From: Eubacteriaceae bacterium
Lineage (GTDB): Bacteria > Bacillota > Clostridia > Eubacteriales > Anaerofustaceae
Length of the DNA stretch: 64,000 nt
Assembly (NCBI GenBank): GCA_009782875.1
Contig: WRIE01000007.1
Span: forward strand, 1-64,000
Direction: 5' to 3'
The first letter of the stretch is position 1; every line of letters starts with the position of its first letter. Shown here one piece after another: positions 5,580-47,246 of this stretch. The notes under the pieces were generated by a model. It made no database searches. It worked only from the letters and a program-made list of their open reading frames with translations, and had not been told where the DNA came from. Made by a program: the position numbers and the translations under genes.

Positions 5580-5603
5580 CTGCAATTAATTAAATAAAGC
5601 ACA

Positions 5604-5649
5604 TGAAAAAAAAGAGAGGCCAATGAAGGCGAGCCCTTCCTTGGCCTCT
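5604..5649 (-). terminator. Terminator for yebC (minus strand)
   Basis: AGAGGCCAA (5615-5623) pairs with TTGGCCTCT (5641-5649), extended inside by GAAGG/CCTTC. Read on the minus strand the stem is followed by a run of T (A-run 5606-5613 on plus). It sits between two convergent genes and may stop both. Confidence 0.75.
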
Positions 5650-5656
5650 AAATATT

Positions 5657-6400: not shown

Positions 6401-6442
6401 GAGTGCCTCCGAAAAGTTATTTTGGTTGTATGCCGAATAGAT

Positions 6443-7012
6443 TTAATTTGTGTAGCCCAAATGGAAAGCCCGCAAGTTGACATCAACATAGTTTGGTTTA
6501 ATGTTCTTCTTGATTGCATCTTCCCATTCATCTGGAGCCATCTCCATGCGTTTGGCCAGCGCGCCAAGCAATACGACGTTCATCGTCATAGCTTCACCAG
6601 CTTCCAATGCCAAGTCATATGCGGCCACAACTGTAGTGTCAACGCATCTGGCGATTCGCTCAATGACATTGGGCGGGTATTCGGCAGTTTGCGCAAGCAC
6701 CCCAACAGGATCTATCCTGAAGTCATTGACTACCACTGCGCCATCAGTCTTTAAATACGCCAAATTCCGCAGCCCTTCAAGCTTCTCGAAAGCAACAAGC
6801 AAATCTGCGCTGCCTAGCTCGATTACTGGGCAAGCCACATTTTCGCCATATCGTATTTGGGATGAGACGCTTCCGCCTCTTTGGCTCATGCCGTGTATCT
6901 CGCTCATTTTCACATCATGGCCTGCGTCCATCAAAACATTTGTCAAAAGTTTGCTGGCAGTGATTGTTCCTTGGCCGCCTACGCCAACAAGCATTATATT
7001 TTTAACGCTCAC
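6443..7012 (-). CDS. iorB: Indolepyruvate:ferredoxin oxidoreductase, beta subunit
   Basis: The 189-residue gamma-type subunit begins SVKNIMLVGVGGQGTITASKLL, the family signature. Together with IorA it oxidatively decarboxylates aryl-2-oxoacids such as indolepyruvate to aryl-acetyl-CoA, passing electrons to ferredoxin during anaerobic breakdown of aromatic amino acids. The start is GTG at 7012, whose G overlaps the last base of the iorA TAG; AAGGAGG inside the end of iorA serves as its ribosome site. The one-base overlap implies equal, coupled synthesis of both subunits. Confidence 0.92.
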   Translation of the reverse strand: MSVKNIMLVGVGGQGTITASKLLTNVLMDAGHDVKMSEIHGMSQRGGSVSSQIRYGENVACPVIELGSADLLVAFEKLEGLRNLAYLKTDGAVVVNDFRIDPVGVLAQTAEYPPNVIERIARCVDTTVVAAYDLALEAGEAMTMNVVLLGALAKRMEMAPDEWEDAIKKNIKPNYVDVNLRAFHLGYTN

Positions 7013-8793: not shown

Positions 8794-9038
8794 TAGTCAC
8801 CTCGAAAATACGGTAATTGTTGTTGTGTTGAAAGCTGCTCCAAAAAAAGATATTTGCTTCAAAAAAATGCGCTTACTCAAGTGCTGGAGGCAAAACAATT
8901 TTTGGCAAGTTATTTGCATTTAAGCAATAGTAATATAAAATAGAAGTTAACTTGATAGCTTATTATGACTCTAGATCATTATAGTTTATTTACAGCTTTG
9001 CTGCAAGTTCTATTCTATTTCCAACGGGAGTTTACTTG

Positions 9039-9524
9039 ATGGCGCAACTTATATTGCGTGTTATTAATTTATATTTTTGGTATAGCTCCAATTTGGCAAT
9101 TTTGAAAAAGATGGGATTTGGAAGCGGAGATCTAACAACGCCAAATACCTTTAGGGCACAAGGCGCTGCTTGCAACTTGCTTGTGCAATCGTGTGGCAAA
9201 CCTGCAATCTTCGTGCCAGCCAAAATCCCGGCAAGTTTTCCATCCGCAGTGTTCATCTGCCCTTTTGGGGGCACATGCATTATATTGGCATTTGTCTCAC
9301 TCCGTTTGTTGGCAGGAACCGCAATAAGTGTATACAAAATTGTGCAGATGAAGTTTTTATCTGCATTGGCTGTATACCTGTATCGACCTTTGTCTTTTGG
9401 AATTTCGAACAATGGCCGGATCTTTTTTGGGGTTGGCCTTGTGCCATCTAGGTATAAACCAAATGCTCCGTATATGGCAAATGCTGAGGGATTCTGGCTC
9501 GGCAGCGGTAAAAGTTGCCCATGA
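9039..9524 (+). CDS. Diverged PlsY-like membrane protein, coupled to rarA
   Basis: The 161-residue hydrophobic protein keeps traces of three PlsY (acyl-phosphate:glycerol-3-phosphate acyltransferase) motifs in the right order: GSGDLTTPNTFRAQG for GSGNIGATNxLRxxG, PFGGTCIILA for KGGKGVAT, and RYKPNAPYMANAE for RHRxNIxRLLxGxE. Key residues of each are altered and the N-terminus is short, so acyl transfer is unlikely. The frame is nevertheless probably translated: GGGAG precedes ATG 9039, and its TGA overlaps the rarA ATG (ATGA, 9521-9524). It may be a decaying paralogue or a protein with a new role. The PlsY relationship is my inference from spaced motifs, not from an alignment. Confidence 0.5.
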   Translation: MAQLILRVINLYFWYSSNLAILKKMGFGSGDLTTPNTFRAQGAACNLLVQSCGKPAIFVPAKIPASFPSAVFICPFGGTCIILAFVSLRLLAGTAISVYKIVQMKFLSALAVYLYRPLSFGISNNGRIFFGVGLVPSRYKPNAPYMANAEGFWLGSGKSCP

Positions 9525-10855
9525 CCAGCCAAAGCTCATTTTTCGATTCACCTCCTGGCAACAATTCTGCACCCTTGGCAAACCGGATGAGGCCAGAAAC
9601 TTTAGATGAGTTTGTTGGCCAAAGCGAAATTTTAGGCGAGGGCAAACTGCTAAGGCGAATGCTGGTGGCTGACTCAATTAAATCTATTGTTCTTTTTGGG
9701 CCCCCGGGCTGTGGAAAAACAACCCTTGCCAAAATAATATCAAATACGACACAAAGCTATTTTGAAACAATAAACGCCACAGCCAGCGGCATTGCGGATA
9801 TCCGGGCTTGCATCGACAACGCGCTTAAAAGGATGTCTTCCCGCAACGAGAAAACAATTGTTTTCATAGACGAAATCCATAGGTTCAACAAAATCCAACA
9901 AGATGCGCTGCTTCCTTTTATTGAGAATGGCGTAATCACACTAATAGGCGCAACAACAGAAAACCCGTTTTTTGAATTGACCCCGGCTCTGGCTTCCCGG
10001 ACCACTATTTTTACCTTGAAGCCCTTGTCTGCCGCCGAGGTTGGGACTATTATTAATAATGCCTTAACTGATGCTAAAAAAGGTGTTGGCGGTAGAGGGA
10101 TTGTTGCTACTGAGGAAGCAATTTTGGCTTTGGCAGCGGCAAGCGACGGCGATGCCCGGGTAGCATTAAACGCTTTGGAGCTTGCGGCATTGACCACATT
10201 GCCTGACAGCAACGGCAAAATAAACATTACCTTTGATGTGGTTAGCGAATGCATCCAAAAGAGAATTGTCAAGTACGACAAAGGGCAAGATGAGCATTAC
10301 AACACCATAAGCGCATTTATAAAATCTATACGGGGCAGCGACCCTGACGCTGCCCTATATTGGCTTGCCAAAATGATTTATTGCGGCGAGGATCCCAAAT
10401 TTATCGCGAGGCGGATGGTAATTCTTGCAAGCGAAGATATTTCAAATGCCCAGCCTTCTGCGCTCACATTAGCCGTGGCAACTTTTAATGCAGTGGAAGT
10501 GATCGGTTTGCCCGAATGCCAGCTAAATCTGGCACAGTGCGCTGTTTTTCTTGCCTTGAGCCCCAAAAGCTCTACTTCGATGGACGGGCTTTTCGCAGCA
10601 ATGGAGGATGTTAAAAAGATGCCTAGGGCCAGTGTGCCCGCCCATCTTACGATTAGCCCCTCCCAAGAGGATAAGCCAGAATACAAGTACCCACATAATT
10701 ATCCGGCGGGATATGTCAGACAGCAATATTTACCGGATGCCCTTGCCGGCAAAAAGTACTATGTCCCCAAAGAGATTGGGTACGAGAAACGGCTTGCAGA
10801 TTATCTAAAAAGCATCACCTTGCAGAGCGAGATGAAGGGGGGAGCCAATAACTAG
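9521..10855 (+). CDS. rarA: Replication-associated recombination protein A
   Basis: This 444-residue AAA+ ATPase of the RarA/MgsA/WRNIP1 family has Walker A GPPGCGKTT (about 60-68), Walker B FIDEIHRFNK, sensor 1 GATTENPFFE and the C-terminal tetramerisation region with YKYPHNYPAGYVRQQYLPD. It acts at stalled replication forks and single-strand gaps. The ATG at 9521 overlaps the stop of the PlsY-like gene (ATGA), and no independent ribosome site is strong, so it is probably translated by coupling. An in-frame TTG at 9515 lies within the upstream gene and is less likely. Confidence 0.93.
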   Translation: MTSQSSFFDSPPGNNSAPLANRMRPETLDEFVGQSEILGEGKLLRRMLVADSIKSIVLFGPPGCGKTTLAKIISNTTQSYFETINATASGIADIRACIDNALKRMSSRNEKTIVFIDEIHRFNKIQQDALLPFIENGVITLIGATTENPFFELTPALASRTTIFTLKPLSAAEVGTIINNALTDAKKGVGGRGIVATEEAILALAAASDGDARVALNALELAALTTLPDSNGKINITFDVVSECIQKRIVKYDKGQDEHYNTISAFIKSIRGSDPDAALYWLAKMIYCGEDPKFIARRMVILASEDISNAQPSALTLAVATFNAVEVIGLPECQLNLAQCAVFLALSPKSSTSMDGLFAAMEDVKKMPRASVPAHLTISPSQEDKPEYKYPHNYPAGYVRQQYLPDALAGKKYYVPKEIGYEKRLADYLKSITLQSEMKGGANN

Positions 10856-11303
10856 CGTCTGGCGGCGCTTGTGAAAGCTTGATTGGGTAGCTTAAGTGCG
10901 TTTAGCGCTGTATTGCCCAAGTAATAGGCGACAAATTTGTACCGCTATCCCCTTGCGCAAAGGTTTGTGTTTAAAAGACAGGAGGGAAAGCAGCAGGGAT
11001 GCAAACAACAGCAAACCGCTATAGCAACGTGCGATTTGCTTGCTGGCATGCCTCGATGAATATGCGAATTGGACAGGGACAAGCGCTCATTGTCGCCAAC
11101 AACATGCAAGCGCTACGCGATGGTGTGTGGCACTCCAACAGAAATTTTTCCACGTTGACAACTGCAGCTTGCATAAGCGAATCCATAACCATTATAAAAA
11201 TTCAATTATCAGAAACTAGCAATACACTATTGGCTTTGAGGAAGGCTACATAAGGAGGCGCGATTCCTCCCCCGCCAAGAGTAAGGGGCACCCTCGCGTA
11301 GAA
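10856..11303. other. Leader region of the FecCD importer, 448 bases
   Basis: No protein is supported; the open frame at 10999-11253 resembles nothing known. Near the end, 11249-11290 contains GGCGCGATTCC followed by CCCGCC and GTAAGGGG, which resembles part of a cobalamin riboswitch core (GGTGCGATTCC ... CCCGCCACTGTAA). The usual downstream B12 box is not found and the spacing is compressed, so this is either a degenerate element or chance. GGAGG/CCTCC would form a small hairpin around it. Confidence 0.3.
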
Positions 11304-12329
11304 ATGATGAGAAAATACATTGCAATAACCCTCGCAATACTGGTTTCAGCCGCAGCGATTGTTTTTTTTACTTATTTCGGAGCAGCTAATATCACATTTG
11401 CAGAGACATCCAAAATAATTCTTTATAAAATTTTCGGTGTTTTTTCTAGTGAAGTGGCGCTGTTGGCTTCAAAAGAGACGATAATATGGCAATTACGCTT
11501 TCCAAGGGCATTGTTGGCGTTTCTAGTTGGAGGCGGCCTTGCATTGTCCGGGGCAGTATACCAAGCGATATTCAAAAACCCTATGGCAGATCCATATATT
11601 CTCGGAATATCTTCTGGGGCGGCGTTTGGAGCGACAATTGGCATCATTCTGAAAATCCCTGGTTCCTATCTTGGATTGAACCTGACAAATTGGCTGGCGT
11701 TTGCAGGCTCAATCTTGACTGTTTTTTTTGTATACAACATAGCAAAAGTGGGGAGGAGCGCAATGCTGACCTCCTTGTTGCTGACTGGCACTGCTGTGAG
11801 CCAGTTTTTAACAGCGTTTATTTCTCTTGCAATGATGCTGTCGGCAAATGAGATGAGGCGGATTTATTATTGGACATTAGGCAGCTTCAATTCAAAAGGT
11901 TGGTCCCATGTCGGGATGGTATTGCCATACATTGCCATCTCAGTGATATATATTTATATTTTCTCGAGGGACTTGGATATCATAATGCTTGGAGACGACA
12001 CAGCTGTGCGTTACGGTATTGATGTTGAGAAGGTTAAAAGCCGGATGTTTGTTGTGACAGCGCTGTTGATGAGCGCTTGCGTCTCTGTCAGCGGGATAAT
12101 CGGTTTTGTTGGTCTTGTATCGCCCCATATTATGCGCCTTTTTACCGGTCCTTTGCATAAAAAGCTAATGCCGGCAGCATTTTTCTTCGGGGGCGCCTTG
12201 CTGTGCATGTGCGACACGATCGCCCGCAGCGCAGCTAACTCTGAAATCCCTGTTGGCATAGTAACAGCGCTTTGCGGAGCGCCTTTTTTCATATATTTGC
12301 TGCGCGCTAAGCGCACGGAGGTTATTTGA
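11304..12329 (+). CDS. FecCD/BtuC-family ABC importer permease
   Basis: The 341-residue polytopic membrane protein has about ten predicted helices. Family landmarks are LRFPRALLAFLVGGGLALSG (54-73), NPMADPYILGISSGA and the ATPase-contact block VSGIIGFVGLVSPHIMRL. These permeases carry ferric siderophores, haem or corrinoids when paired with an extracellular binding protein. The ATPase gene overlaps it by one base (TGATG). No substrate-binding protein lies nearby, so it must be encoded elsewhere. Two consecutive ATGs (11304, 11307) are possible starts and neither has a strong ribosome site. Confidence 0.9.
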   Translation: MMRKYIAITLAILVSAAAIVFFTYFGAANITFAETSKIILYKIFGVFSSEVALLASKETIIWQLRFPRALLAFLVGGGLALSGAVYQAIFKNPMADPYILGISSGAAFGATIGIILKIPGSYLGLNLTNWLAFAGSILTVFFVYNIAKVGRSAMLTSLLLTGTAVSQFLTAFISLAMMLSANEMRRIYYWTLGSFNSKGWSHVGMVLPYIAISVIYIYIFSRDLDIIMLGDDTAVRYGIDVEKVKSRMFVVTALLMSACVSVSGIIGFVGLVSPHIMRLFTGPLHKKLMPAAFFFGGALLCMCDTIARSAANSEIPVGIVTALCGAPFFIYLLRAKRTEVI

Positions 12330-13585
12330 TGGAGCCTTTGCTTTCATTTGACCATGTTAGTGTGGGATACGATGAGCGTATTGTGTTGGATGATTTCTGT
12401 TTCGATTTGTTTGAAGGAGAGTTCGTTAGTGTGCTGGGGCCTAATGGGGCAGGGAAGTCTACGCTGATTAATGCAGTCCTCAATACAATAACCCCTACAT
12501 CAGGAACGATCTACCTGTCTGGGAAAGACAACCGATCCTATTCCTACAAGGAGCGGGCATGTATCACTTCTGTAGTGCCCCAGCAGTTCTCGACATCTTT
12601 TGCCTTTACTGTCTATGATATAGTGTTGATGGGCAGAAGCCCTTTTTTGCGCAGGCTCCAGTCAGAGACGCCAGAAGACTTTGAGATTGTGGACCGTGCA
12701 TTGCGCTTGACCAACACTTACCAATTCAAAGACAGAAAAGTCACAGCCCTTTCAGGCGGGGAGCGGCAGAGAGTCGTCATTTCAGGCGCTTTAGCCCAAA
12801 CCCCAAAATTGCTGATACTCGATGAGCCGACCAGCCAGCTTGATATGCACCACACATTGGAGATTATGCAATTGATCAGGCGCCTCAACCAAGAAGAAGG
12901 GTTGACAGTGTTGGCTGTCCTCCACGATATCAATATGGCTTGCAGGTATTCAGACAAGCTATTAATGATAAAAGATGGGAAAAAAGTCATCGAGGGGCCT
13001 GTTGACCAAGTAGCAACTGAGGATGTGCTTACACCTGTTTACAAAGTTGATATGGTTGTAAGAACTAACAGGCTGACGGAATCTATTGAAGTTGTGCCAA
13101 TTAAAAAAACTGATGATGAAATCCTGCCATACCGAAAACAGGTTTGTTTGGTGTGTGGAGGGGGCAGCGGACAGTCACTGATGGTTGAGCTGCGCAACAA
13201 CCGTTACAAAACATGCGCTGCTGTATTGAACAGCTCTGACAGTGATGCAGAGGCTTGCCAGGATATGGGTTTTGAATTCGTGTTGGAAGCGCCGTTTTGC
13301 CAAATTTCTGATGAGAAATTTGAAGAATGCGTTGAAATAATAAAAAAATGTGATGTTGTCATAGTTGCTAGTGTGCCTTTCGGCTCAGGCAACCTGAAAA
13401 ACCTGGAAGCAATCAAAAAAGCTGCAGAATCGAAAAAGTTGGATGTATACTTGATTGAATGCGGCAAAAGAGATTTCACAGGCGGTTTGGCCGATGCTAT
13501 AATGGATGGAATGGTCGATGAGGGATATGCGAAAAAAGTGCTCTACCATGATCTTACAGGCCTTATTGCCCAAAATGTGCTCTAG
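12329..13585 (+). CDS. ABC importer ATPase with extra C-terminal nucleotide-binding-like domain
   Basis: The 418-residue protein has ATPase core 1-255: Walker A GPNGAGKS (37-44), signature LSGGERQRV and Walker B LLILDEPTSQLD, as in FepC/BtuD. After a short linker comes a separate alpha/beta domain (about 262-418) starting QVCLVCGGGSGQSLMVELRN, with further blocks DVVIVASVPFGSGNLKNLE and VYLIECGKRDF. Its glycine-rich first loop resembles a Rossmann-like nucleotide site. Such C-terminal additions occur in other anaerobes' iron/corrinoid importers; the function is not known to me. ATG 12329 overlaps the permease stop, with GGAG eight bases upstream. The gene is about 160 codons longer than an ordinary importer ATPase. 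Confidence 0.88.
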   Translation: MEPLLSFDHVSVGYDERIVLDDFCFDLFEGEFVSVLGPNGAGKSTLINAVLNTITPTSGTIYLSGKDNRSYSYKERACITSVVPQQFSTSFAFTVYDIVLMGRSPFLRRLQSETPEDFEIVDRALRLTNTYQFKDRKVTALSGGERQRVVISGALAQTPKLLILDEPTSQLDMHHTLEIMQLIRRLNQEEGLTVLAVLHDINMACRYSDKLLMIKDGKKVIEGPVDQVATEDVLTPVYKVDMVVRTNRLTESIEVVPIKKTDDEILPYRKQVCLVCGGGSGQSLMVELRNNRYKTCAAVLNSSDSDAEACQDMGFEFVLEAPFCQISDEKFEECVEIIKKCDVVIVASVPFGSGNLKNLEAIKKAAESKKLDVYLIECGKRDFTGGLADAIMDGMVDEGYAKKVLYHDLTGLIAQNVL

Positions 13586-13606
13586 CCAAACTTGGAGGTG
13601 GCAAAT

Positions 13607-14572
13607 TTGAGGATTTCAGTTCAAGGATGCGGAAGATGGGGCAGTTTTATCGCTTGGTACTTAAGCAGGATAGGTTATGATGTTTGTCTATGGGGGCGAA
13701 AGACTTCAGCAAGCTTGGAGCAATTCAAGCAAACGAGAAAAAACACTTATCTTGAGCTTCAAGACAATATTCATTTGACTGACGACCTTGACGAATCATT
13801 GTCTTTTTCTGACATTATAATTGTAAGCATTTCAGCCCAGGAGCTGAGATCCCATGCAAAAGTGTTGTCGATGGCAGAAGGGATCGAGGGCAAAACCCTA
13901 GTTTTGTGCATGAAAGGACTCGAGGACGGCACAGGCTTGCGGCTAAGCCAAGTTGTCAGGGAAGTATTGGGCCAAAGAGTCAAAGTTGCCGTATGGCTTG
14001 GACCTGGCCATGTGCAGGATTTCTTGAATGGCAATCCAAATTGCATGGTGATCGACTCTGATGACAATGATTTGGTCACAGAGCTTGTTGAAATATTCAG
14101 TTCAGACCTAATCCGTTTCTATTACGGCCATGACTTAATAGGAAGCGAAATTGGCGCTGCCGCTAAAAATGTTATAGGCATTGCGTCCGGGATCTTGGAC
14201 GGCTTGGAAATGAGCGCGCTGAAGGGCGCGCTGATGGCGAGGGGCTCAAGGGAGGTTTCGAGGCTGATTAAGGCCATGGGCGGCAATGAGCTTACAGCTT
14301 ATGGATTGACACACTTAGGTGATTATGAGGCGACTGTGTTCTCAAAGTATAGCCATAACCGCAGTTTTGGAGAAGCGTATGTGAGGGGCGACCACTTTGA
14401 GCTGCTAGCGGAGGGAGTTGCGACCAGTTCAGCGTTGATGGCTTTAAAAGACAAGTACAATGTTGAGCTGCCCATTAGCTCTGCAGTTTATGATATTGTA
14501 ATACACCAAAAAGATCCAATACAGACACTTTCAAATTTGTTTTTAAGAAGTATTAAAGGCGAATTTGTATAA
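13607..14572 (+). CDS. gpsA: NAD(P)H-dependent glycerol-3-phosphate dehydrogenase
   Basis: It makes sn-glycerol 3-phosphate from dihydroxyacetone phosphate for phospholipid synthesis. The 321-residue form starts with the nucleotide site RISVQGCGRWG, has the conserved VWLGPGHVQDF block (usually GPSHAEE) and the catalytic Lys in GAAAKNVIGIASGI. The preferred start is TTG 13607 because GGAGG (13594-13598) lies eight bases upstream; the longer frame from 13592 would place that site inside the coding sequence. The GPSH-to-GPGH change is slight and probably tolerated. It follows the importer ATPase by 21 bases and may share its transcript. Confidence 0.9.
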   Translation: MRISVQGCGRWGSFIAWYLSRIGYDVCLWGRKTSASLEQFKQTRKNTYLELQDNIHLTDDLDESLSFSDIIIVSISAQELRSHAKVLSMAEGIEGKTLVLCMKGLEDGTGLRLSQVVREVLGQRVKVAVWLGPGHVQDFLNGNPNCMVIDSDDNDLVTELVEIFSSDLIRFYYGHDLIGSEIGAAAKNVIGIASGILDGLEMSALKGALMARGSREVSRLIKAMGGNELTAYGLTHLGDYEATVFSKYSHNRSFGEAYVRGDHFELLAEGVATSSALMALKDKYNVELPISSAVYDIVIHQKDPIQTLSNLFLRSIKGEFV

Positions 14573-14774
14573 AAATACAATAAAAAACATTGGCTATTGC
14601 AGGAATCGGTCTGTTTTTGTTTTCTGCCAGCCTTTTTTCCATCTCTTAGGGGCAGTCACGGCCAATTGGGGTTTGTAGCCTCGTTTTTTTTGCGGGCATT
14701 TTCCGCCACATTATCGGCAATCATATGCCGTCGCCGTCGCAACCCCGAAAACTTGCTGCTGCATGCAATTTGAC

Positions 14775-25844: not shown

Positions 25845-26650
25845 TTATTTCCTGTAATGCGCTTGTGCTGGCGTTATGTAGCCAAGGCTTTGGTGGAGCC
25901 TTTTATTATTGTAAAACTCAAAGTATTCCCTAAGCCCAGACCTGCATTCCTTTGTAGACTGGCAATCTGACAAGTATACATTCTCATACTTCACGCTCCT
26001 CCATAGCCGCTCAACCATTATTTTGTCAAATGCGCAGCCTCGGTGGTCCATGCTTATATGGCTTCCAGCTTCTATGAATGGCTCGTAAAACTTCGGGCTT
26101 GTGAACTGCCCTCCTTGGCCTGGGTTCATTATCTGCGGGATGCCTTTCAGCCTGGCAGCCTTGCCCGCCTCCAGGACAAAGCCTATATCAAGCGTGTCAT
26201 CGAGCTCCCATGACAGCACGAGCTTGCTGTGCCAATCCATTATCGCTACAAGGCACAAAAGCTTCCACGCAAAGGGATGTATGTGATGTCGACACACCAG
26301 GCTTGGTTGGTCTTGCAGATCTGCAGCCCTTCCAACAAGCACGGGAAAATGTTGCTTTCAGCCCCTGGCTTGCTGGTGCGTGGCTTCGGGTATATAGCCT
26401 CAATGCCCATTTGCGCAATATGGCCCCTTACAGCCTTCCTTCCCGCTTCCAGCCCATATTCCGCCTTCAAGGTTTTAGAAATGCGCCTGGAGCCGGAAAA
26501 TGGGCTTGCTGTGTAGATTTTGTCTATATTCCTGCGCACAAGTGGGCTATAACTTGGGAGCCCTATTGGCGTATAATAGAGGGAAGAGCGGCTCGCTGAC
26601 AATGCCTCTGCTTGCCAAGACAAAGGGATTTCGCCACCCTTTTCAGCCAT
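25845..26650 (-). pseudogene. IS3 transposase orfB, frameshifted
   Basis: The N-terminal half runs from 26650 with SWQAEALSASRSSLYYTP (HTH_21 region) and reaches the DDE core at WCVDITYIPLRGSF. Near 26260-26275 the frame shifts, and a second frame continues with LVAIMDWHSKLVLSWELDDT, then NPGQGGQFTS (second Asp replaced: usually HSDQG) and VERLWRSVKYENVYL with the Glu, ending YNNKRLHQSLGYITPAQAHY. One indel plus a Gly in the HSDQG motif makes an active product unlikely. Confidence 0.85.
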
Positions 26651-26669
26651 TCCAGCACGGCTGCTGTGG

Positions 26670-26945
26670 CTAAGGCTCTCTGCCAGATTTTTTTTTAAGC
26701 CACTCGCACATTGCAGTGACCTTCCCCAGCTGGCAATACGCCTCGTCTAATTCATCCTGCATTTTCCTCTCCTTCTCTGCAGCTTTCTCTGCCCCTTCAA
26801 ATGCCATGTGGCAATTCTTGAGAAATTCACTCTTCCATCTGATTGCTTGGTTATGGTTTGATGCAACTTCGCTTAATGTCCTGTCGCCCTTTATTATGTC
26901 TAGCACAACTTTTGTTTTAAACTCTGAACTGTAGCTTTTTCTCAT
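26670..26945 (-). pseudogene. IS3 transposase orfA, with small internal deletion
   Basis: The 91-residue protein MRKSYSSEFKTKVVLDIIKG ... LKKKSG is the usual IS3-family helix-turn-helix plus leucine-zipper subunit. Compared with intact relatives a few residues are missing within the HTH (ASNHN-QAIRWKSEF, where ASEYGVHPNQLSRWKKEF is expected). An A9 run near its end (26688-26696 on plus) is a potential -1 slippage site, but orfB lies in the other frame, so a productive OrfAB fusion is not supported here. Confidence 0.75.
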
Positions 26946-27140
26946 TGTTGAATCTCCTGCTTGCATTATCGGTGATCCAACTAAAATTACGCTGTTTTTT
27001 TATCCAGATTTCTGGGACCATTATAGACAGCTTGCTGGCTGTTGAAAGAGAAACTGCAATGGCAAAGAATACGTTGGCTATTGATGGCACATTATCTCGC
27101 TGGGAGCGTCATCAAAACTACCACATAAGTAAGCAAATAC

Positions 27141-27493: not shown

Positions 27494-28174
27494 TATTATT
27501 CTCTCCTTTTATATTAATATGGTTAATCCAATAACGCTATTATACTGTAGTTACATGTCATCTACACATAACTACTTTATTAAGCTTTGTCTGCATTTGT
27601 CTTCATTGGCATTTTGGCCTGGTAAGAAAAAATGGGTTGATTTCAATGATATTTGTTATAATAAAGAAATTACAGATAGTGCCTTGATGAAAATTTTCAT
27701 TTTCGCTTCGATTGCTTGTATTTTAAGACAATTTTTGATATGGTTGTTGCATAGTAACTGTAATGAAATATGAAAACATATTCAATACAACTTTAGTTGA
27801 CAATAGATTTTATCACGTGTAATCTAATAACCAGGCATGGGTAGTCGATTAGTTTCGCAAAACTCCAATTAGCAGCAATCTTAGACATTAAATTCGCATA
27901 AAATTGAGCAAATTTCACCTAAACCACAGTATTGCAGAAAAAATAGCACGCCACAGCCCTTTATTGGTTGCTAATGTGAAAGACATTATATAAAGATGGA
28001 AAATGTCAATATGTGTAATTTCATTTTAGCCTTGATATCAAATATTGGCGGCTAGTATAGAAGCCAATAGTAGTTAGTTGCGCTATTTCAAAGATCAATG
28101 TAACTATAAAATACATACAAACAGCAATATATATTAAGACGTAATCATTCTTAGAAACTAAAGGGGGATTTCAA
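27494..28174. other. Intergenic region upstream of the VWA/kinase cassette
   Basis: A 681-base AT-rich region with no supported gene. The TATAAT-like words at 27658 and 28106 (TATAAA) could belong to promoters of the flanking genes, but no pair with a good -35 element is convincing. Confidence 0.35.
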
Positions 28175-28837
28175 ATGACCAGCTTTGTAATGTCAAAGCA
28201 TCAAATGGTAGTTCTTTTTAGCCTTCTTAGCAAAAGGGCAATTCCAATTGGATTTGTTGATTTGCTGCCTGTCTGCAACAATGACAGGATAGCAATTGTT
28301 AGAGGTTTTATCGAGAACAAGATATTGATTCCATCAGATAACAAACTAAACACTGACAAAAACTTAGAGGCTTACCTTGAACCAATATTCACAAGTGAAA
28401 AGGTTCTTATTTTAAGCTATGGCATAAGCGAGCTGGGCCATTTGTTTAATGCGACATTTTATACATCAAAAGGCAGCTTAGTCGCGCTTTTGGACTTGCC
28501 TGACAACATGGTCCAAATGGTGAAATTCGACAACTATTCCGAACTGGATATTTTTCTGCCTTCATTAAGCCAATCACGCGAGATGAATGGCGAGTATATT
28601 AATTACGTTTTATTCCGCAGAGACACACAAACCGTCCATAGTGCAAAAAAAGCAAATGGTTTGGTGGATGTGGAAGAGCTTGTAGCGGATGTATCACAAA
28701 CACTGGCAAAACAAATTTTTACAACCTCCCTTAAAGACTATCAAAAGCTGTTTGCAAATAAGGCAAGAGAAGTATTTGATGTATTCAATCAGCAGCCTGT
28801 AGCAGTCCATGTTAACTCCTGCAAGTATTGCATGTGA
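28175..28837 (+). CDS. Unrecognised 220-aa protein, first gene of VWA/kinase cassette
   Basis: A soluble protein without signal or membrane segment. Residues 1-60 read as helices resembling a small winged-helix-like unit (MSKHQMVVLFSLLSKRAI ... IVRGFIENKILI). About 70-130 is a beta-rich part with TFYTSKGSLVALLDLPDNMV, and 165-205 is helical. The last residues, NSCKYCM, hold a CxxC pair. The overall plan is faintly like the chaperone-type accessory proteins of type VII secretion, but I cannot show homology. AGGGGG lies before the ATG. The next gene starts 68 bases downstream, and the three genes run in one direction up to the terminator at 31628, so a joint function with the kinase-like and VWA proteins is likely. 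Confidence 0.7.
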   Translation: MTSFVMSKHQMVVLFSLLSKRAIPIGFVDLLPVCNNDRIAIVRGFIENKILIPSDNKLNTDKNLEAYLEPIFTSEKVLILSYGISELGHLFNATFYTSKGSLVALLDLPDNMVQMVKFDNYSELDIFLPSLSQSREMNGEYINYVLFRRDTQTVHSAKKANGLVDVEELVADVSQTLAKQIFTTSLKDYQKLFANKAREVFDVFNQQPVAVHVNSCKYCM

Positions 28838-28905
28838 GATGGTTTTGCTGTGGCGCTTAATGGTTGAATTTTTGTGTATATCAGAGTTACAATAGAAGAA
28901 TGGCA

Positions 28906-30780
28906 ATGGAAGAAAAAAACCGTATCGAGAGTAAAGCTCCTATTGAAAACTTTGAAGACATTGAATTTGAATCTTATGACTACCTTGTTGTTGACTTTAG
29001 TGCATTTTTTTCCGATATTAGCCAAAAGTTGGCATATGTATTAAACAACAGCAACAGAGTATTGATATCGACAACCTTTCATGAAGAATGCATGCAAACA
29101 AGGCTGGTGGCTAGCCTATCGAGAAGGAAACTGTTCGATTTAAATAATTCTCGAGTTCCAATAACTGGGCTTACCGTGGCATCTTCAAAAATAACCAATG
29201 TGAATGGTAGAATCGACACTTACAGGTTGGCAAGCTCCCTATGCCAGCAAGGCAAAAAATTGTTGGTTGTTGCAGATAACTCGACCCTTGCGGAAAACAT
29301 ATTCTCGAATGGAATTGATTGTGACATTTTTGATTTATCTATAGAATCGATGTTAAGCAAGGCAGATCTAAGCCTAAAGACACTTTGGCTAGAGAATACT
29401 ATGTATGCTACAACCGAGACGCCAAAAGGGCCTGAGCTATACACAGCCACAGGGAGCATCACTTTAAGCTCGATTTTTAATGATTCTGGCCGGGAGGCCT
29501 TGATATGCAACATTTTAGGCAATGAGCTTTTGTTTGCAAAGATATATAAAAGTGTTTCGTTGACAAAGGAAAAAATAAGCAATGTAGAAAACCTAGTCGA
29601 AGTTGGAAGAGATTTGGGTGTTAGCTGGGCAGCCTTTCCATTGGAAGTAGTATATTCTGATACTGGATTGTCGGAGCCAGTCGGATTCACAATGCGCCGA
29701 CTACCCGAGGCAATGAAAACATTAGACAAAATCGAGCTCTTTTCTGGTAGAAACGATGACGTGCTGCCAAAATATTCCTTAGTCCCATTCTTGTTTCCAT
29801 ATGTGCTTTGTCTTGATATTGTAAGCAAGATAAACTGGATGAGCACAAAAGGCGTGTTGGCAACAGATATGAATGATGGCAATTTCGCAGTATTGCAGTC
29901 AGATGTGTTTTTTATGGATGTAGATAGTTTTGCTTGTGGCAGCTATGTCAGTGACACTATTGCCCAAAACAATACAACTCGGGAATTTGATTTTACCCAA
30001 AAACAAGAAATCATCCAATTTGCCACAGAGTCTCTATTGATACTGTGTTTCAAGCTAATCACTTTAGGTGTGCAGCCAATGTACAAGGGGCGCTTCAGGT
30101 TCCGCACAAACAGGGTTAACAGGCAACTGGATTATAAATGGAATTTGATACCTAAGAACTTGAGGGATTTGTTCTCTAAAGTTTTCGAGAATAATGAGGT
30201 TTGCCGAATTGGTGAATTAGCCAACGAACTTGCCATTGCCATCAGGACTTTAAAAGAGAATGGGATAGGTTCGACATTGATGAGAGAAGCAGTAGGCGAG
30301 CATATTTTTATGACAAGAAGCGACGATTTAGGCCAAGCTTTCTTCTGCATGATGTCACTCTCAGCCGATGAATCAAACGATTTGCTCTACTTTAATTTTA
30401 ATGTAGATGCTTCGCTGCCGATAATGGTTGCCGCAGATTCAAATCCAAACAAGCTGTTCTTTTTTTATAGAAATTCTGACCAAACATATAGTATTGCTGC
30501 ATTTGATGGAAATTCGTACAAATATTTAAGCGCAGAGAAAAGCCCAGGTGGAAAGATCACACTGCACTTAGTCCAGAATGGGCAACAAAATTCTGCAAAA
30601 TGGAGAATCGAGTCGTTGGAAGCTGGGAATCCTGGCTGTTTAGAGTGTGTGATTGGTTGTGAAGCATATCCTTCATTAGTCTTGGAAGTCGACCAACACT
30701 CGTCTAGCCTAACTCTGGCAGACAGGCTGAATTTCCCGCATGCTAGCCGGCAACAGTTCATGTTGTCGATATGCTCTTAA
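28906..30780 (+). CDS. PIN-like / divergent kinase / beta-trefoil fusion protein
   Basis: The 624-residue protein reads as three parts. Residues 22-150 look PIN-like: YDYLVVDFSAFF (Asp30), then GKKLLVVADNSTLAENI (Asp124). Residues about 195-455 resemble a protein-kinase fold: GNELLFAKIYK (Lys212 or Lys215), a catalytic-loop-like ATDMNDGNFAV (Asp321, Asn326) and FMDVDSF in the DFG position (Asp338). Residues 475-624 look like a ricin-type beta-trefoil, with QTYSIAAFDGNSYKYLSA and a QNSAKWRIES end-of-repeat. TerY-linked kinases have a similar core. The start is ATG 28906 (AGAAG at 7 bases); ATG 28900 is possible. Domain calls were made by eye. It may be an active kinase with atypical motifs or a pseudokinase. 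Confidence 0.65.
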   Translation: MEEKNRIESKAPIENFEDIEFESYDYLVVDFSAFFSDISQKLAYVLNNSNRVLISTTFHEECMQTRLVASLSRRKLFDLNNSRVPITGLTVASSKITNVNGRIDTYRLASSLCQQGKKLLVVADNSTLAENIFSNGIDCDIFDLSIESMLSKADLSLKTLWLENTMYATTETPKGPELYTATGSITLSSIFNDSGREALICNILGNELLFAKIYKSVSLTKEKISNVENLVEVGRDLGVSWAAFPLEVVYSDTGLSEPVGFTMRRLPEAMKTLDKIELFSGRNDDVLPKYSLVPFLFPYVLCLDIVSKINWMSTKGVLATDMNDGNFAVLQSDVFFMDVDSFACGSYVSDTIAQNNTTREFDFTQKQEIIQFATESLLILCFKLITLGVQPMYKGRFRFRTNRVNRQLDYKWNLIPKNLRDLFSKVFENNEVCRIGELANELAIAIRTLKENGIGSTLMREAVGEHIFMTRSDDLGQAFFCMMSLSADESNDLLYFNFNVDASLPIMVAADSNPNKLFFFYRNSDQTYSIAAFDGNSYKYLSAEKSPGGKITLHLVQNGQQNSAKWRIESLEAGNPGCLECVIGCEAYPSLVLEVDQHSSSLTLADRLNFPHASRQQFMLSICS

Positions 30781-30865
30781 AAAATATAATCGCTAAGACC
30801 GAAATGGAAAAAACATACGGCGCATTGGCAAAAAAAGTTTAAGTGCGTTGCGATAGGTGGCTTTT

Positions 30866-31609
30866 ATGAACACAAACATTTTACAAAATTCGGCAAAACG
30901 CATGCCGATTGCACTCTGTCTCGATGTGTCGCCTTCGATGGGGATGAAAAAGAGGATCGAGCATTTGAATATAGCTGTTAAAATGTTTTTCAAATCGTTG
31001 AAGGATGACCCTAAGGTTCTGTCTTCTGCTGAGATTGCCATTGTTTGTTTTAGCACTGGTGTTGTCGCAGACAGAGACTTTCGGTACCTAGACGCTTTCC
31101 CAATCCCCCGTTTTGCGCCAGTGAAAAAGGGCAGGACAAATATGGCTGCTGGCATACAAAGGGCTCTTGAAAAAATTCGTGACCACAAATATATTTTGGA
31201 CACATCCGAAATTGAGTATCATGTACCATTTTTGATTGTCATCACTGACGGCAACCCGGACAATAACGATGACAAAGAGTTGTTGGGCAAAGTTGTAGAA
31301 GAGTTGAAGGAACTCGGCCACTTGCCTGAGTCAGAGCAAATAGTCCCCATAATCGTTGGTGTTGGAGACGAGTCGGATTCTGACAAGTTGGATGAGATAG
31401 CAAGCGGGTTTGCCGTGAAAGCGTTGCGTGTCAACTCATTGGATGAGGAAGAAAACCTCTTTACAGACATCTTCACTTTCATAAGCAAATCAGTGCTGTA
31501 CAGTGTCAAGGGAGACCGCAATGCCTCCGAGCAGATCAAGGCCACATTGGCAGGATACAATCAACTGCAGGAACAATTTGAACAAGCGAAACTGCGAAGT
31601 GTGTTTTAA
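30866..31609 (+). CDS. TerY-like VWA-domain protein
   Basis: The 247-residue stand-alone von Willebrand A protein has a complete MIDAS: Asp20-Val-Ser22-Pro-Ser24 in LCLDVSPSMG, Thr91 in GRTNMAAG and Asp128 in VITDGNPD. It has no signal peptide, so it acts in the cytosol, probably as a metal-dependent protein-binding partner. Single-domain VWA proteins beside a kinase and a phosphatase are known from TerY modules of tellurite-resistance-type loci; here the phosphatase is absent. The start is ATG 30866, with AGGTGG five bases upstream; the in-frame GTG at 30857 overlaps that site. It is followed by a terminator. Confidence 0.87.
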   Translation: MNTNILQNSAKRMPIALCLDVSPSMGMKKRIEHLNIAVKMFFKSLKDDPKVLSSAEIAIVCFSTGVVADRDFRYLDAFPIPRFAPVKKGRTNMAAGIQRALEKIRDHKYILDTSEIEYHVPFLIVITDGNPDNNDDKELLGKVVEELKELGHLPESEQIVPIIVGVGDESDSDKLDEIASGFAVKALRVNSLDEEENLFTDIFTFISKSVLYSVKGDRNASEQIKATLAGYNQLQEQFEQAKLRSVF

Positions 31610-31627
31610 AAACAAAAATTGCTATTG

Positions 31628-31656
31628 AACCCCTTCTGTGAGGATGGGGTTTTTTT
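31628..31656 (+). terminator. Terminator closing the VWA/kinase cassette
   Basis: AACCCC (31628-31633) and GGGGTT (31646-31651), with a run of seven T, 19 bases after the VWA stop codon. Confidence 0.85.
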
Positions 31657-31937
31657 GAGGTCAAGTTGATAAAACGTGCCGCAAGTAATTTCTTTGCTGC
31701 TAGAATTATTCCACAGCAACAAAGCCATTCTTGTTGAAAATGCTCTCTGCTTGCATGTCGCATTCGGGAAGTGAAAAACTGCCTAGGCTATCCATGCGTT
31801 ATGAATAGCCTACAGCATGCTGGCTTTTTTGTGGAGCATCCTACAAACTTGGCAATAACTCGAGGATTTGGGTTATCAGGTTGTGTAAAAACGAAAGAAA
31901 AAGCCCAAATAGAGGCGAAAGAAAGTATGGTTTAAGT

Positions 31938-33149
31938 ATGGATCTTGACAGAATTAGAGTAGCAACTAACGAAATAAGAAATGTACACCCCTCCTTCCTT
32001 GGCGATACCACTAAAGCATTCGAATATATAAAAACTTTGCCAATGTATGCCCAGACCCCTCTAATCAGCTTGGACAACTTGGCGGCTCAAGTTGGGATCG
32101 GAAAACTGCTTGTAAAAGATGAGTCAAACCGGTTTGGCCTAAAGTCATTCAAACCAATTGGAAGTGTTTTTGCAGTTTCAACGCTGCTTTCCGAGTTGGT
32201 GTCTGGTTGTGAGCCACACTTCTTTGATAGTCTTGAAGAAAACCTTTTGGATTTTGCCAACAAGCCGGTTTTTGCCACTGCATCTGACGGAAACCACGGC
32301 TATGGGCTGGCATGGGCGGCAAATATCTTTGGATGCAAATCAACAGTTTTTTTGCCTGCGGGCACTGTGGAAAGCCGGATTTCGGCAATCGACTCGATAC
32401 CCAATGGCAAAGCTGTTTTGACGACTGTTGGTTATGATGAAACAGTTAATCATGCAAAGGAATATGCCCAGTCCAGCGGGGCTGTGTTGGTCCAAGATAC
32501 ATCCTTTGAAGGATACGAGGATGTCCCAAAGTTGATTATGCAAGGATATTGCGCAATTGCATGCGAGATAACCGAACAAATTGAAATTCTTCAAGTTATG
32601 CCAACCCATGTGTTTTTGCAGGCAGGAGTCGGCTCATTTGCTGCTGCTGTGTTATTGGGGCTAAAGAGCTTTTTTGAAGCTAAAGCTCGCCCAATGCCGG
32701 AATTCGCTATCGTCGAACCTCTTTCAGCCGCTTGCTTATTCGAGTCTGCCATATCCGCTTGCAAGGAAATCGTAAGTGTGGTGGAGGAGGAGACGATAAT
32801 GGCTGGTTTGAAATGCGGCACTCCTTCTAGGCATGCGTGGGAGGTGCTTAAGGATTGTGCAAGGTACTTTATTGCGTGCCCGGATTCTGTGAGCGCACAT
32901 GGGATGTGGGTTTTGGCTCATCCGGCAGGGGAGGATGCTCGAATTGTGTCAGGCGAGTCAGGGAGTGTTGGAGCGGGGTTGGTTAGCGCGCTAAGACACC
33001 CTAGTTGTGCGGGGATTAAGGAAACACTAGGTCTTGGCAAGGATTCTGTCGTTCTTGTTATAAACACTGAAGGGGACACAGATCCGTCGAACTACCACCA
33101 AATTATAAATGATATCTCAAACAAGCAATTCAATATGCTTGGTATTTGA
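31938..33149 (+). CDS. dpaL: Diaminopropionate ammonia-lyase
   Basis: The PLP enzyme (403 residues) converts 2,3-diaminopropionate to pyruvate and two ammonia. The Schiff-base Lys is Lys72 in GLKSFKPIG. The cofactor and family blocks are FATASDGNHGYGLAWAA, GYDETVNHAKEYAQ and DTSFEGYEDVP, followed by QAGVGSFAAAVLLG and a glycine-rich GESGSVGAGLVSAL phosphate loop. Length fits the family. ATG 31938 gives the typical N-terminus; the frame stays open to a TTG at 31881 without family similarity. No neighbouring diaminopropionate biosynthesis gene is present, so a catabolic role in amino-acid fermentation is likely. A transposon lies nine bases after the stop codon. Confidence 0.92.
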   Translation: MDLDRIRVATNEIRNVHPSFLGDTTKAFEYIKTLPMYAQTPLISLDNLAAQVGIGKLLVKDESNRFGLKSFKPIGSVFAVSTLLSELVSGCEPHFFDSLEENLLDFANKPVFATASDGNHGYGLAWAANIFGCKSTVFLPAGTVESRISAIDSIPNGKAVLTTVGYDETVNHAKEYAQSSGAVLVQDTSFEGYEDVPKLIMQGYCAIACEITEQIEILQVMPTHVFLQAGVGSFAAAVLLGLKSFFEAKARPMPEFAIVEPLSAACLFESAISACKEIVSVVEEETIMAGLKCGTPSRHAWEVLKDCARYFIACPDSVSAHGMWVLAHPAGEDARIVSGESGSVGAGLVSALRHPSCAGIKETLGLGKDSVVLVINTEGDTDPSNYHQIINDISNKQFNMLGI

Positions 33150-33158
33150 ATCTATGTT

Positions 33159-34533
33159 ACTGTAATTGCAAAGCCAACACGAGGAATCCTCAAAGCATAA
33201 ACTTGTGCTTGTCGAAATATCAAGAATTACGTTGAAAATTGACATCATATTATGAAAAAAGAGGCAACACACCGCATTAATGGTATTATGAGTTTGCATA
33301 CAAAAATACCAATCAGGTGAAGCCTCATGATTAATATACCACTAAACAGCCAGATTGCAAAGCGACTTGAAAGGCTAGCCATTTATGAAGCCTCCCAGCA
33401 GAAAAAGGCAATGCTGGCGGGCAGGATAATGGCAGCGATGATTTTGCCGGGATATTGCGGAAAGCTCAGTGGCATCGAGCGGAGGACTGGATTGAGCCGG
33501 GAGACATATGGCTATATGCTGAGGGACAATAGCTGGGACGACAGCCCGCTTGGCGGCTATGCCGGAATAACTGCGGCGGAAAAGGCTTTTTCTGCCGCTC
33601 AAGGGGCTGGCAAACCGGTGGTTGTGTGCTTGGACGGCACCATCAACACAAGGGAGGCTCCCCGGAGCGGGACAACCAGCCCCTCGGAGGGGATGGGCTT
33701 CCACTACTCGCACAAGGACAAAAAGAAAGTTTACGGCTGCCAGACTGCCGGGATGCTTATTGGCGCCATGGGCAGCGATTTTTTGTGCCATGGCTTCAGG
33801 ATATATGGCAAAACAAAGTCCAAAATAGAGCTGGCCCGGGAATTGATATCATGCTTGCCAGAGGCCGAAACCGTTAGTTGCGCGGTTTCCGGCTGCTGGT
33901 ATGCAAATAAAAACATAATCCCGGAATTTTGGGCCAAAGGCTATGAAGTGGTTTGCGCATTGAAAACCAACAGGATAATCTATCCCGCAGGGCACAGGAT
34001 CCAAATCAAGGATTTCTCAAAGCTGGTTGAGAAAAACGAGTGTTGCCTCGTTACAGCAAACTCGAAAAAGTACTATATCTACAAGCTTGAGACCCGCTTG
34101 GCGGGCATTGAAAACCCGGCGGTGCTTATAAGCTGGCCTGAGGATGGGTTTGGCAACGAGAAAGCGATGAGAGCCTTCCTCTGCTCTGATGTCTTCTTGA
34201 GCGGACAGGAGATAATTCACATCTACACCCAAAGATGGGACATCGAGGTATTTTTTAAAGAGTGCAAAAACACATTTGGAGCAAAAAAAATCATGCTCCG
34301 GACAATATGCGGGATAAGGAGGCGCTGGCTGATTGCAGCGCTTGCCCACAATTTCTGTGTATCAGAGGGAGGCTCGTTCTTGGAGGGCAGGGCAGAGTTT
34401 ATTAAAAATGAATTTGAAAATCGAGGAGATTTGCTCTATGAACTGGCATACACCCTCCCCAAAAATGAATTTGCAGAGCTCTATAGTAAAATTGCGTAGT
34501 GTGTAATACTAGAATCTCTTTTTGCAATTACAG
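33159..34533 (+). mobile_element. Insertion sequence with intact ends (1375 bases)
   Basis: The ends are ACTGTAATTGCAAA (33159-33172) and its inverse TTTGCAATTACAGT (34520-34533). The 5-base direct repeat ATGTT flanks the element (33154-33158 and 34534-34538), a clear target duplication. One transposase gene fills the element. A second, degenerate copy of the family lies at 14775-15768. The right end is 54 bases from the start of the following lipoprotein gene. Confidence 0.92.
33327..34499 (+). CDS. IS4-superfamily (IS701-like) DDE transposase
   Basis: The 390-residue transposase shows the DDE core: Asp103 in VVVCLDGTINT, the region SGCWYANKNIIPEFWAKGYEVV where the second Asp is expected, a TNRIIYPAG block, and the Glu in YTQRWDIEVFFKE. 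At the second position this protein has Gly189 (codon GGC, 33891-33893) in SGCWYANK, where relatives I know read DSWYANK; the decayed copy also has Gly. The gene is open throughout and has TGAAGCC before its ATG, but activity is uncertain because of that residue. Confidence 0.85.
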   Translation: MINIPLNSQIAKRLERLAIYEASQQKKAMLAGRIMAAMILPGYCGKLSGIERRTGLSRETYGYMLRDNSWDDSPLGGYAGITAAEKAFSAAQGAGKPVVVCLDGTINTREAPRSGTTSPSEGMGFHYSHKDKKKVYGCQTAGMLIGAMGSDFLCHGFRIYGKTKSKIELARELISCLPEAETVSCAVSGCWYANKNIIPEFWAKGYEVVCALKTNRIIYPAGHRIQIKDFSKLVEKNECCLVTANSKKYYIYKLETRLAGIENPAVLISWPEDGFGNEKAMRAFLCSDVFLSGQEIIHIYTQRWDIEVFFKECKNTFGAKKIMLRTICGIRRRWLIAALAHNFCVSEGGSFLEGRAEFIKNEFENRGDLLYELAYTLPKNEFAELYSKIA

Positions 34534-45009: not shown

Positions 45010-46549
45010 CCACACTCTACTGTTTCCTCGGGATTATCTCAGGGCACTTTATCTTGAACAGCTTGTAGCAGTCTTTCGCTTTTTTGAAAGCTTCCTGGGT
45101 GACAATCCTGTCATCAAAAACCTTGCATTTTTGGTTGCGCAAGTTGAGCAGCAGCGATATAGGGTTGTAAGCGGTTTCTAGCAGCGCGTCCTGCAGCTTT
45201 TTGATGACAACAGCCACAATGAATGTGAGCAGCAAGTGCCCCCTTAGCGCCTCCTCCGTCTGGACGCGCAGCGGGAGCAACCCGGCGTAGTTTTTGCCTA
45301 TGTCAAACATTTGCTCAATCTGCTGCCTTGTGTAGTACAGCGGCAGCACTTTAGAGATGGCAATCCGGCGCGACGAGACAAGGATGAATATGCTTTTCTT
45401 GTTTATCTCGTCATATACCTGCCCAGTGTCCATGTTTTTGTCCTTTGCCCGCTGGAATGTCTTGCGCGCCCCAAGGGACCTTTGTTCGATATCGAGGCCT
45501 ATGTATGCATGCGCGTTGTGGCCGTCCAGCTGGACTTTGGCGTGCTTGAGGTAGACATGCCTCCCGTTGTATTCGACAAGGTTCTCCTTGGCCTCAAGCG
45601 ACCCTAGGTGCTCCTCCAGCAAATCTTTGTATAGGACAAGGTTGGGCTTGAGCCTTGTGACAAAAGATATCTTCCTGGCAAAGAGGTCTTGGATATTGTC
45701 CGAAGTGTAGTAGCCAGCGTCCAGAATGGCGAACTTCACATTCACCCCTTGCGCCTTGAGCTCCCCAAGCGTCCTTATAAGCGTGGAAGTGTCAATCATA
45801 TTGCCGGGGCAGTAGCGGAAGTACAGGGGCAAGCCTGTGTTTTGCTGGACCACGCAAATAAGCCTTGTCTCCTTTGAAACCTCGCCGTCTTGGCTTCGCA
45901 ATGCGGTCAGCGGCAGGTGGATGCTGTTTGGCAGGCCAGTGCTGTCGACCAGGATGTTCTCTGCGTTTCCGGCGTCCACCTCCGCCATCCCAAGCATTTT
46001 GAAGTACTCCTTGAAGAACTCTCTTTGCGAGCCCTCGTCCCCGATCGCCGCCAGGAAATCGCTGACGCGCTGGCTGGAGAGGCTGGCGCCTGGGTACAGC
46101 ATCCTGGCGTAGCTGCCTTCCCACCAGCTAAGGGCGTGGGTGTTCGCCAAGGGGCATAGCGCATAGAAGCAAACCATCGCCATGAGCGTGTCGAGGTTGC
46201 CATAGCCGACAGCTGAAATCGGCGCGATCAAGCCGTTCCCGTTTATGAACTGGTCCAGGAAGAAAACGTCGCCGAAGTCCAGCACAAGGGACTCCTTGCG
46301 GCTCCTCGACGGCGGGCTGAAATCGGCAGGCGCGCTCCCGTAAGCGCCGCTTTCAAGGTCGTATGTGAAGACTCCACGCTCGCGGTTGCTATAAATCCCG
46401 CGCTCCTCGTCGAGCACCCTGCCAAGGTTGGTGTAGTTCTTTGAGATACCGTTCCCGATTCTTTTTGAGACGCAGAGTTTCGCGTACTTGATGCCGTTTT
46501 TGATGTCGTATGCGATAAACAATGTGTAGCCCATCCTCGTGGTTAGAAT
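45003..46549 (-). mobile_element. IS1634-type insertion sequence (ends tentative)
   Basis: The inverse 11-base words ATTCTAACCAC (45003-45013) and GTGGTTAGAAT (46539-46549) closely bracket the transposase gene. I see no target duplication, so the true ends may lie further out (a second TAACCAC word is at 46560). It sits inside the IS30-type element. Confidence 0.55.
45017..46534 (-). CDS. IS1634-family transposase, intact
   Basis: The 505-residue IS4-superfamily transposase starts MGYTLFIAYDIKNGIKYAKL. The DDE residues lie in ILVDSTGLPNSIHLPL (first Asp), KFAILDAGYYTSDNIQDLF (second Asp) and YYTRQQIEQMFDIGKNYAGL (Glu), all present. The reading frame is unbroken, which contrasts with the decayed genes around it and suggests a more recent arrival. 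The frame extends 20 codons upstream of ATG 46534 but that would cross the proposed terminal repeat. Confidence 0.88.
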   Translation of the reverse strand: MGYTLFIAYDIKNGIKYAKLCVSKRIGNGISKNYTNLGRVLDEERGIYSNRERGVFTYDLESGAYGSAPADFSPPSRSRKESLVLDFGDVFFLDQFINGNGLIAPISAVGYGNLDTLMAMVCFYALCPLANTHALSWWEGSYARMLYPGASLSSQRVSDFLAAIGDEGSQREFFKEYFKMLGMAEVDAGNAENILVDSTGLPNSIHLPLTALRSQDGEVSKETRLICVVQQNTGLPLYFRYCPGNMIDTSTLIRTLGELKAQGVNVKFAILDAGYYTSDNIQDLFARKISFVTRLKPNLVLYKDLLEEHLGSLEAKENLVEYNGRHVYLKHAKVQLDGHNAHAYIGLDIEQRSLGARKTFQRAKDKNMDTGQVYDEINKKSIFILVSSRRIAISKVLPLYYTRQQIEQMFDIGKNYAGLLPLRVQTEEALRGHLLLTFIVAVVIKKLQDALLETAYNPISLLLNLRNQKCKVFDDRIVTQEAFKKAKDCYKLFKIKCPEIIPRKQ

Positions 46550-47246
46550 ATGAATTACTAACCACATTATGGCAAAAATCGATAAATAATGCAACTATTA
46601 TTTGAGATATTTAACCATTTTAGGATGTATTCTGGTTTACAATTAGCTTGTTTCATTGTTATATATCGCTACAATTTATAGTGGATAGAATTTTAGATCG
46701 GGAATTACGGATCATACTTTCCAGGCGCTAAATTACTAGCGGGAATTTCCCAACTAAAATTCAAAACCAGTGCCGTTTAACCTGAAAGACGCTTTTTAAA
46801 GGCTTGTTTGCTATGCCCTTTTCCTGGCGCCCAGGCTTCCCAGGCTTTCAGAGCCTGCCTGTTTGGATCACCATTATATTAAAACATTATTTTCCATATT
46901 AAATTCTCTTTATTGTTTCGCCCTTTCACAGAGTAAGGTCCAGGCGGCCACCACTGTGGCGCTTGCTTTGGGAATTTACACTCATATGACTGGATATGAC
47001 CATGGTGAATTGAGAAACTCTAGTCGGGTTTATCTGTAATGGAACAAACCATGATGGCATTGCAGAAGATATGCAACAAGACAATATCGGTATCGACGAG
47101 TTTTCGGCACTTTAAGCGACTGCCGGCGCAATACTTGAATACAGAGCTTTCCGGCGGTTGTGGTTCAGGTTCGTATTGCGTATGTAATTAATAATTCCCG
47201 GTATTTTTTTTGATTTTTTCGGTATATGTTCAGCCCAAGTCATCTC

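Follow-up and report, generated by a model that had tools for sequence, protein, structure and literature searches.

Organization and surroundings of the cassette

The window, i.e. the whole stretch of 64,000 nucleotides that was analysed, contains three intact open reading frames, designated P1, P2 and P3, which lie on the plus strand and are followed by a terminator, as a preliminary description of this DNA had proposed. P1 (28175-28837) encodes a protein of 220 aa and is preceded by the ribosome-binding site AAAGGGGGA at 28160-28168. P2 (28906-30780) begins with an ATG at 28906 and codes for a kinase-containing protein of 624 aa, which would become slightly longer if one of the alternative in-frame starts, ATG at 28900 or TTG at 28864, were used. 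P3 (30866-31609), starting with the ATG at 30866, encodes a stand-alone VWA protein of 247 aa; its ribosome-binding site TAGGTGG is located at 30854-30860. Both ribosome-binding sites, like the genes situated on the plus strand, were read from the sequence and rated good. The Rho-independent terminator closing the cassette (31627-31656, plus strand) is composed of an AACCCC/GGGGTT hairpin and a subsequent T run, with a folding energy of -13.4 kcal/mol. It was found by reading and folding the sequence and is absent from the list of the automated scan. The GC content of the cassette is 0.41, compared to 0.45 for the window.

The cassette is flanked on either side by transposase genes, in keeping with the IS-rich surroundings described earlier. 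We identified an IS3-type gene at 25845-26966 and two DDE transposase genes at 33327-34499 and 45017-46594. Between the cassette and the first of the DDE transposase genes, the gene of a PLP-dependent enzyme (31881-33149, plus strand; Pfam PALP, 7e-41) is situated, which we take to resemble diaminopropionate ammonia-lyase. Outside the cassette, the window contains the gene of a separate Ser/Thr kinase of 840 aa with an apparent transmembrane segment (54471-56993, plus strand; Pfam Pkinase, 8e-26), and ahead of it, at 53272-54018, the gene of a protein with a zinc ribbon. Among the open reading frames of the window that were scanned with Pfam, no further Ter or defence genes were recognized, and PADLOC gave no match for P1, P2 or P3.

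Relationship of P3 and P2 to proteins of TerY-P triads

TerY-P triads occur widely and, according to published reports, protect against phage; to our knowledge, it has not been described how their kinase, VWA protein and phosphatase work jointly. Passages of PMC11090510 and PMC7699616 citing Anantharaman et al. 2012 and Gao et al. 2020 define the triad as a TerY-like VWA protein, a PP2C phosphatase and a Ser/Thr kinase. A role as a phosphorylation switch that senses metal has been hypothesized for it (PMC11090510), and protection was found against T7-like phages (PMC7699616).

P3 matches the Pfam VWA family at 3.1e-07 and a profile of triad VWA proteins at 8e-33 (HMMER). In a profile-profile comparison with these proteins by hhalign a probability of 99.5% was obtained. 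The five MIDAS residues (D20, S22, S24, T91 and D128), whose presence had been noted before, did not vary when P3 was aligned with 12 VWA proteins of triads. Judged from its sequence, P3 is a TerY-like VWA protein with a complete MIDAS.

P2 did not match any Pfam family. Nevertheless, an HMMER profile of 39 triad kinases, from which P2 had been left out, recognized aa 167-391 of the protein at 9e-22, and hhalign, again with P2 omitted from the profile of the triad kinases, gave a probability of 98%. The TerY-type kinase/VWA module suggested in the preliminary description was thus recovered by matches of both proteins to neighbouring triad genes. The Ser/Thr-kinase-like catalytic domain of P2 comprises aa 177-450 (29434-30255, plus strand), as indicated by conserved residues, the structure model and fold matches in the PDB, and harbours the two motifs that had first drawn attention to this protein, ATDMNDGN at aa 319-326 and FMDVDSF at aa 336-342. 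In an alignment of 40 sequences, sixteen columns never vary, and P2 conforms to every one of them, including K212, D321, N326, D338 and D340. The AlphaFold2 model, calculated from an alignment of P2 and 39 relatives, shows pLDDT values mostly of 75-94 across most of the kinase domain, and its best matches among PDB structures are protein kinases. P2 is therefore confidently predicted to contain the Ser/Thr-kinase fold that had been expected. The glycine-rich loop, however, is degenerate (SGREAL where triad kinases have SGGEGxV) and the APE region is altered to TTRE. Because of these two changes, kinase activity of P2 is plausible but not certain, and it may be weak or absent.

Terminal regions of P2

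The kinase domain is bordered by additional regions on both sides, as had been proposed. At the N-terminus, an alpha/beta region (aa 22-155; 28969-29370, plus strand) with alternating strands and helices in the AlphaFold2 model occupies the position at which triad kinases carry a PIN domain. The N-terminal extension is therefore not new. By alignment, D30 and E61 of P2 fall in conserved columns of the PIN region of the triad kinases, while the third acidic position appears to be N instead of D. Direct comparisons with the PIN profile were negative: 178 out of 449 shuffled sequences scored as well as the P2 N-terminus, and hhalign yielded 0.3%. Since in addition the alignment underlying the model included the PIN-kinase relatives themselves, a PIN domain in P2 is a guess.

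The C-terminal domain (aa 470-624; 30313-30777, plus strand) is predicted to be beta-rich, with strands of low confidence. Triad kinases carry a zinc ribbon or OB fold at this end; for P2, neither Pfam nor the PDB returned a substantial match. A ricin-type beta-trefoil was also considered for this region and dismissed, as neither Pfam nor the PDB supported it.

P1 has no detectable relatives

The first protein of the cassette had been described as unrecognized, and this did not change in any collection searched. Pfam, PADLOC and NCBIfam do not assign P1 to a family, and no relative is present in the PDB. Homologues were found neither in 67 genomes of the order nor in samples of 391 genomes of the class and 399 of the phylum, where weak matches at class level (E 0.002-0.007) seem to be fortuitous. 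Nor was a homologue present in plasmids, phages, viral contigs or the related triad loci. A single-sequence structure model of P1 was unusable (mean pLDDT 35).

The only resemblance of P1 to a triad component was a local match of 31 residues to triad PP2C proteins (NGEYIN..LF against NGEFVN..VF) at a near-colinear position. It was equalled by 2 of 442 shuffles with a profile of seq­uences numbering seven and by 26 of 851 with one of 43 sequences, while hhalign gave 2.7%, a score reached by 2 of 40 shuffles. The PP2C metal-binding motifs ADGAG, GDG, SDG and DDCS are absent from P1. A diverged PP2C was hence rejected as an identity of P1, the local match not being convincingly above the shuffles. 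P1 appears as an orphan and is not a detectable PP2C, so that the earlier suggestion of a protein replacing the phosphatase could not be upheld.

A further candidate, based on a pattern impression, was a type VII secretion protein like EspG/DUF5081; it was discarded in view of the missing Pfam match. The DUF5081 profile found nothing in the genome of the window, which says little because the control genomes were silent as well, and no WXG100 protein scored above the cut-off in this genome.

Related loci and the missing phosphatase

The single plasmid match obtained with P2 by tblastn was a kinase of Lysinibacillus capsici, encoded in a plasmid operon whose gene order is kinase, VWA, PP2C and DnaJ-like. 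From 84,980 species genomes, 46 loci were recovered by a scan keyed on one nine-residue pattern. These loci and relatives from other genomes encode a kinase with an N-terminal PIN-like domain (in the triad kinases of Bacillota, Pfam PIN_4 at 0.0035, below the cut-off), one or two VWA proteins and a PP2C. The scan did not disclose a close relative of P2, which is not a proof of absence as it relied on a single pattern. Within the same order as the genome of the window, an uncultured Eubacteriaceae bacterium (G061) possesses a classical triad on a contig of 4606 bases (L025). Among phages and viral contigs, neither P1 nor P2 nor the VWA alignment produced a match, and the kinase alignment detected one ordinary triad (L022). 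VWA matches on proteobacterial, actinobacterial and cyanobacterial plasmids were discarded; those inspected turned out to be VWA–PP2C–kinase triads or a Ter cluster.

The closest sequence relatives are PIN-kinase/VWA/PP2C operons of Bacillota, e.g., on the Lysinibacillus plasmid pFN9B (L004) and in Peptostreptococcus russellii (L039), together with that of Fusobacterium vincentii (L007). The identity to proteins of these operons amounts to about 20-29% for P2 and about 26-32% for P3. The cassette shares with the Bacillota operons the order of kinase and VWA genes; unlike them, it does not contain a PP2C gene after the VWA gene, and P2 possesses neither the zinc-ribbon-like cysteine motifs nor the CFI-box present at the C-termini of their kinases. 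In quick trees, which included the kinase and VWA homologues of E. coli (YegI/YegL), P2 was placed beside the PIN-kinase group and the placement of P3 was unsure. The end branches were extremely long, with 5.0 (P2) and 4.2 (P3) changes per column. The genes yegI and yegL of E. coli K-12 are homologous to P2 and P3, but the YegI–PphC–YegL set includes the phosphatase PphC, and YegI is membrane bound and lacks a PIN-type N-terminus. YegI autophosphorylates and is dephosphorylated by PphC (PMC13232886).

A joint occurrence of the three genes in other genomes had been proposed as a test. Homologues of P2 and P3 do occur together, with a PP2C as companion and not P1. A second copy of the complete set was not found, as P1 turned up neither in the sampled genomes nor in the related loci; the cassette is a single orphan case from one genome.

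The lack of a phosphatase gene, one of the features pointed out at the beginning, was borne out by comparison. Of the 27 related loci in which at least 3.5 kb follow the kinase gene, 25 encode a PP2C, whereas the cassette contains none. A TerY-type PP2C profile built from the triads was silent in the whole genome of the window and gave matches in all five control genomes. The search covered this profile and a draft genome of 109 contigs (92% complete), for which reason a distant phosphatase could be missed. The two loci devoid of PP2C are L031, the kinase of which is of another sort, and L065 (CAJOMI010000012.1, 553-10305) of an uncultured Lachnospiraceae bacterium. The latter, a Zorya-like locus, harbours genes for an SNF2-type helicase, a TerY-type VWA protein, a PIN-kinase and ZorA-like (3e-35) and ZorB-like (2e-77) proteins. 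Like our cassette, it combines VWA and kinase genes without an adjacent PP2C gene, which shows that the genes of kinase and phosphatase do not have to be neighbours. It differs by a classical-looking kinase and VWA protein, by the helicase and ZorA/ZorB-like neighbours and by the absence of P1.

Interpretation of the cassette

Taken together, the cassette probably represents a highly diverged VWA–Ser/Thr-kinase core of TerY-P-type triads, in which the dedicated PP2C is missing. That two adjacent genes match two adjacent genes of one and the same module is more than would be expected by chance. As in TerY-P triads, a stand-alone VWA protein with MIDAS lies, within an accessory stretch, beside a Ser/Thr kinase that is extended at its termini by further domains. 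The cassette deviates from them by the missing PP2C, the orphan P1, the C-terminus of P2, which could be recognized neither as a zinc ribbon nor as an OB fold, and the extreme divergence of P2 and P3. In such a unit, P3 would use its MIDAS to bind a divalent metal and serve P2 as a partner for docking or sensing. In response to a signal of stress or phage, P2 would autophosphorylate and then phosphorylate a target, for which P3, P1 and its own output regions are candidates; P2 would accordingly be the kinase and possibly also the output. P1, whose connection to the module is derived from its co-orientation and the shared terminator, may be an accessory partner or a substrate. As no phosphatase is co-encoded, the switch would work one-way or be reset by a host enzyme. 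We regard it as doubtful that P1, P2 and P3 are the first example of a rare VWA–kinase class operating in signalling or defence as a one-way switch without a phosphatase of its own, with P1 as dedicated sensor, substrate or effector. As a natural unit that has kept kinase and VWA protein and lacks the phosphatase, the cassette makes it possible to address directly which of the components are indispensable and if a reversible switch is required.

The long branches of P2 and P3, the degenerate glycine loop, the IS elements close by and a P1 that was found nowhere else could also be explained by decay: a classical triad would have lost its phosphatase and be drifting, and P1 would be an unrelated co-transcribed neighbour. 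Drift would not have preserved the catalytic and MIDAS residues, though, and three intact frames equipped with ribosome-binding sites and a terminator argue in the same direction, making a remnant unlikely in our opinion. It is very improbable that P1 is a functional substitute of the phosphatase, be it a degenerate PP2C-like protein or an unrelated antagonist of the kinase. Its size is similar to that of short triad PP2C proteins and the local match is near-colinear, but this match was unconvincing against shuffles and in hhalign, and the metal-binding motifs are lacking. With neither a detectable relative nor a convincing PP2C match, P1 does not qualify as a stand-in for the phosphatase.

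A narrower version of the diverged-core explanation, and compatible with it, is a unit for phage defence or abortive infection: phosphorylation would release the PIN-like region of P2 as an RNase effector, and P1 would be the phage sensor. This would fit the protection conferred by TerY-P against T7-like phages (PMC7699616), the PIN-like N-termini of the Bacillota triad kinases, detected below the Pfam cut-off, and the VWA–PIN-kinase pair that shares its locus with ZorA/ZorB-like genes in L065. We nevertheless judge it rather unlikely, because the N-terminus of P2 fitted the PIN profile no better than shuffled sequences, its third acidic position is apparently N, and neither a PADLOC match for the three proteins nor recognized defence genes nearby were obtained.

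Variants of the triad in other genomes

Some of the loci collected deviate from the simple triad. Long operons of Bacillaceae (L056, L057, L067 and L068; about 5400-14700) start with genes for a PIN-kinase, a VWA protein, a PP2C and a multi-pass membrane protein and continue with a second PIN-kinase, a second VWA protein and a DnaJ-TPR-like protein. In the second PIN-kinase GDIN is replaced by GNVN, suggesting that it is likely a pseudokinase. Triads of Synergistales (L045, L049) and Treponema (L023, L026) contain two divergent VWA genes, and those of Synergistales two more PIN-like genes upstream of the kinase gene. Finally, two sites on one contig of Campylobacter gastrosuis (L035 and L036, NZ_JANURM010000001.1) show an identical gene layout and identical locus coordinates, possibly reflecting a duplicated triad.
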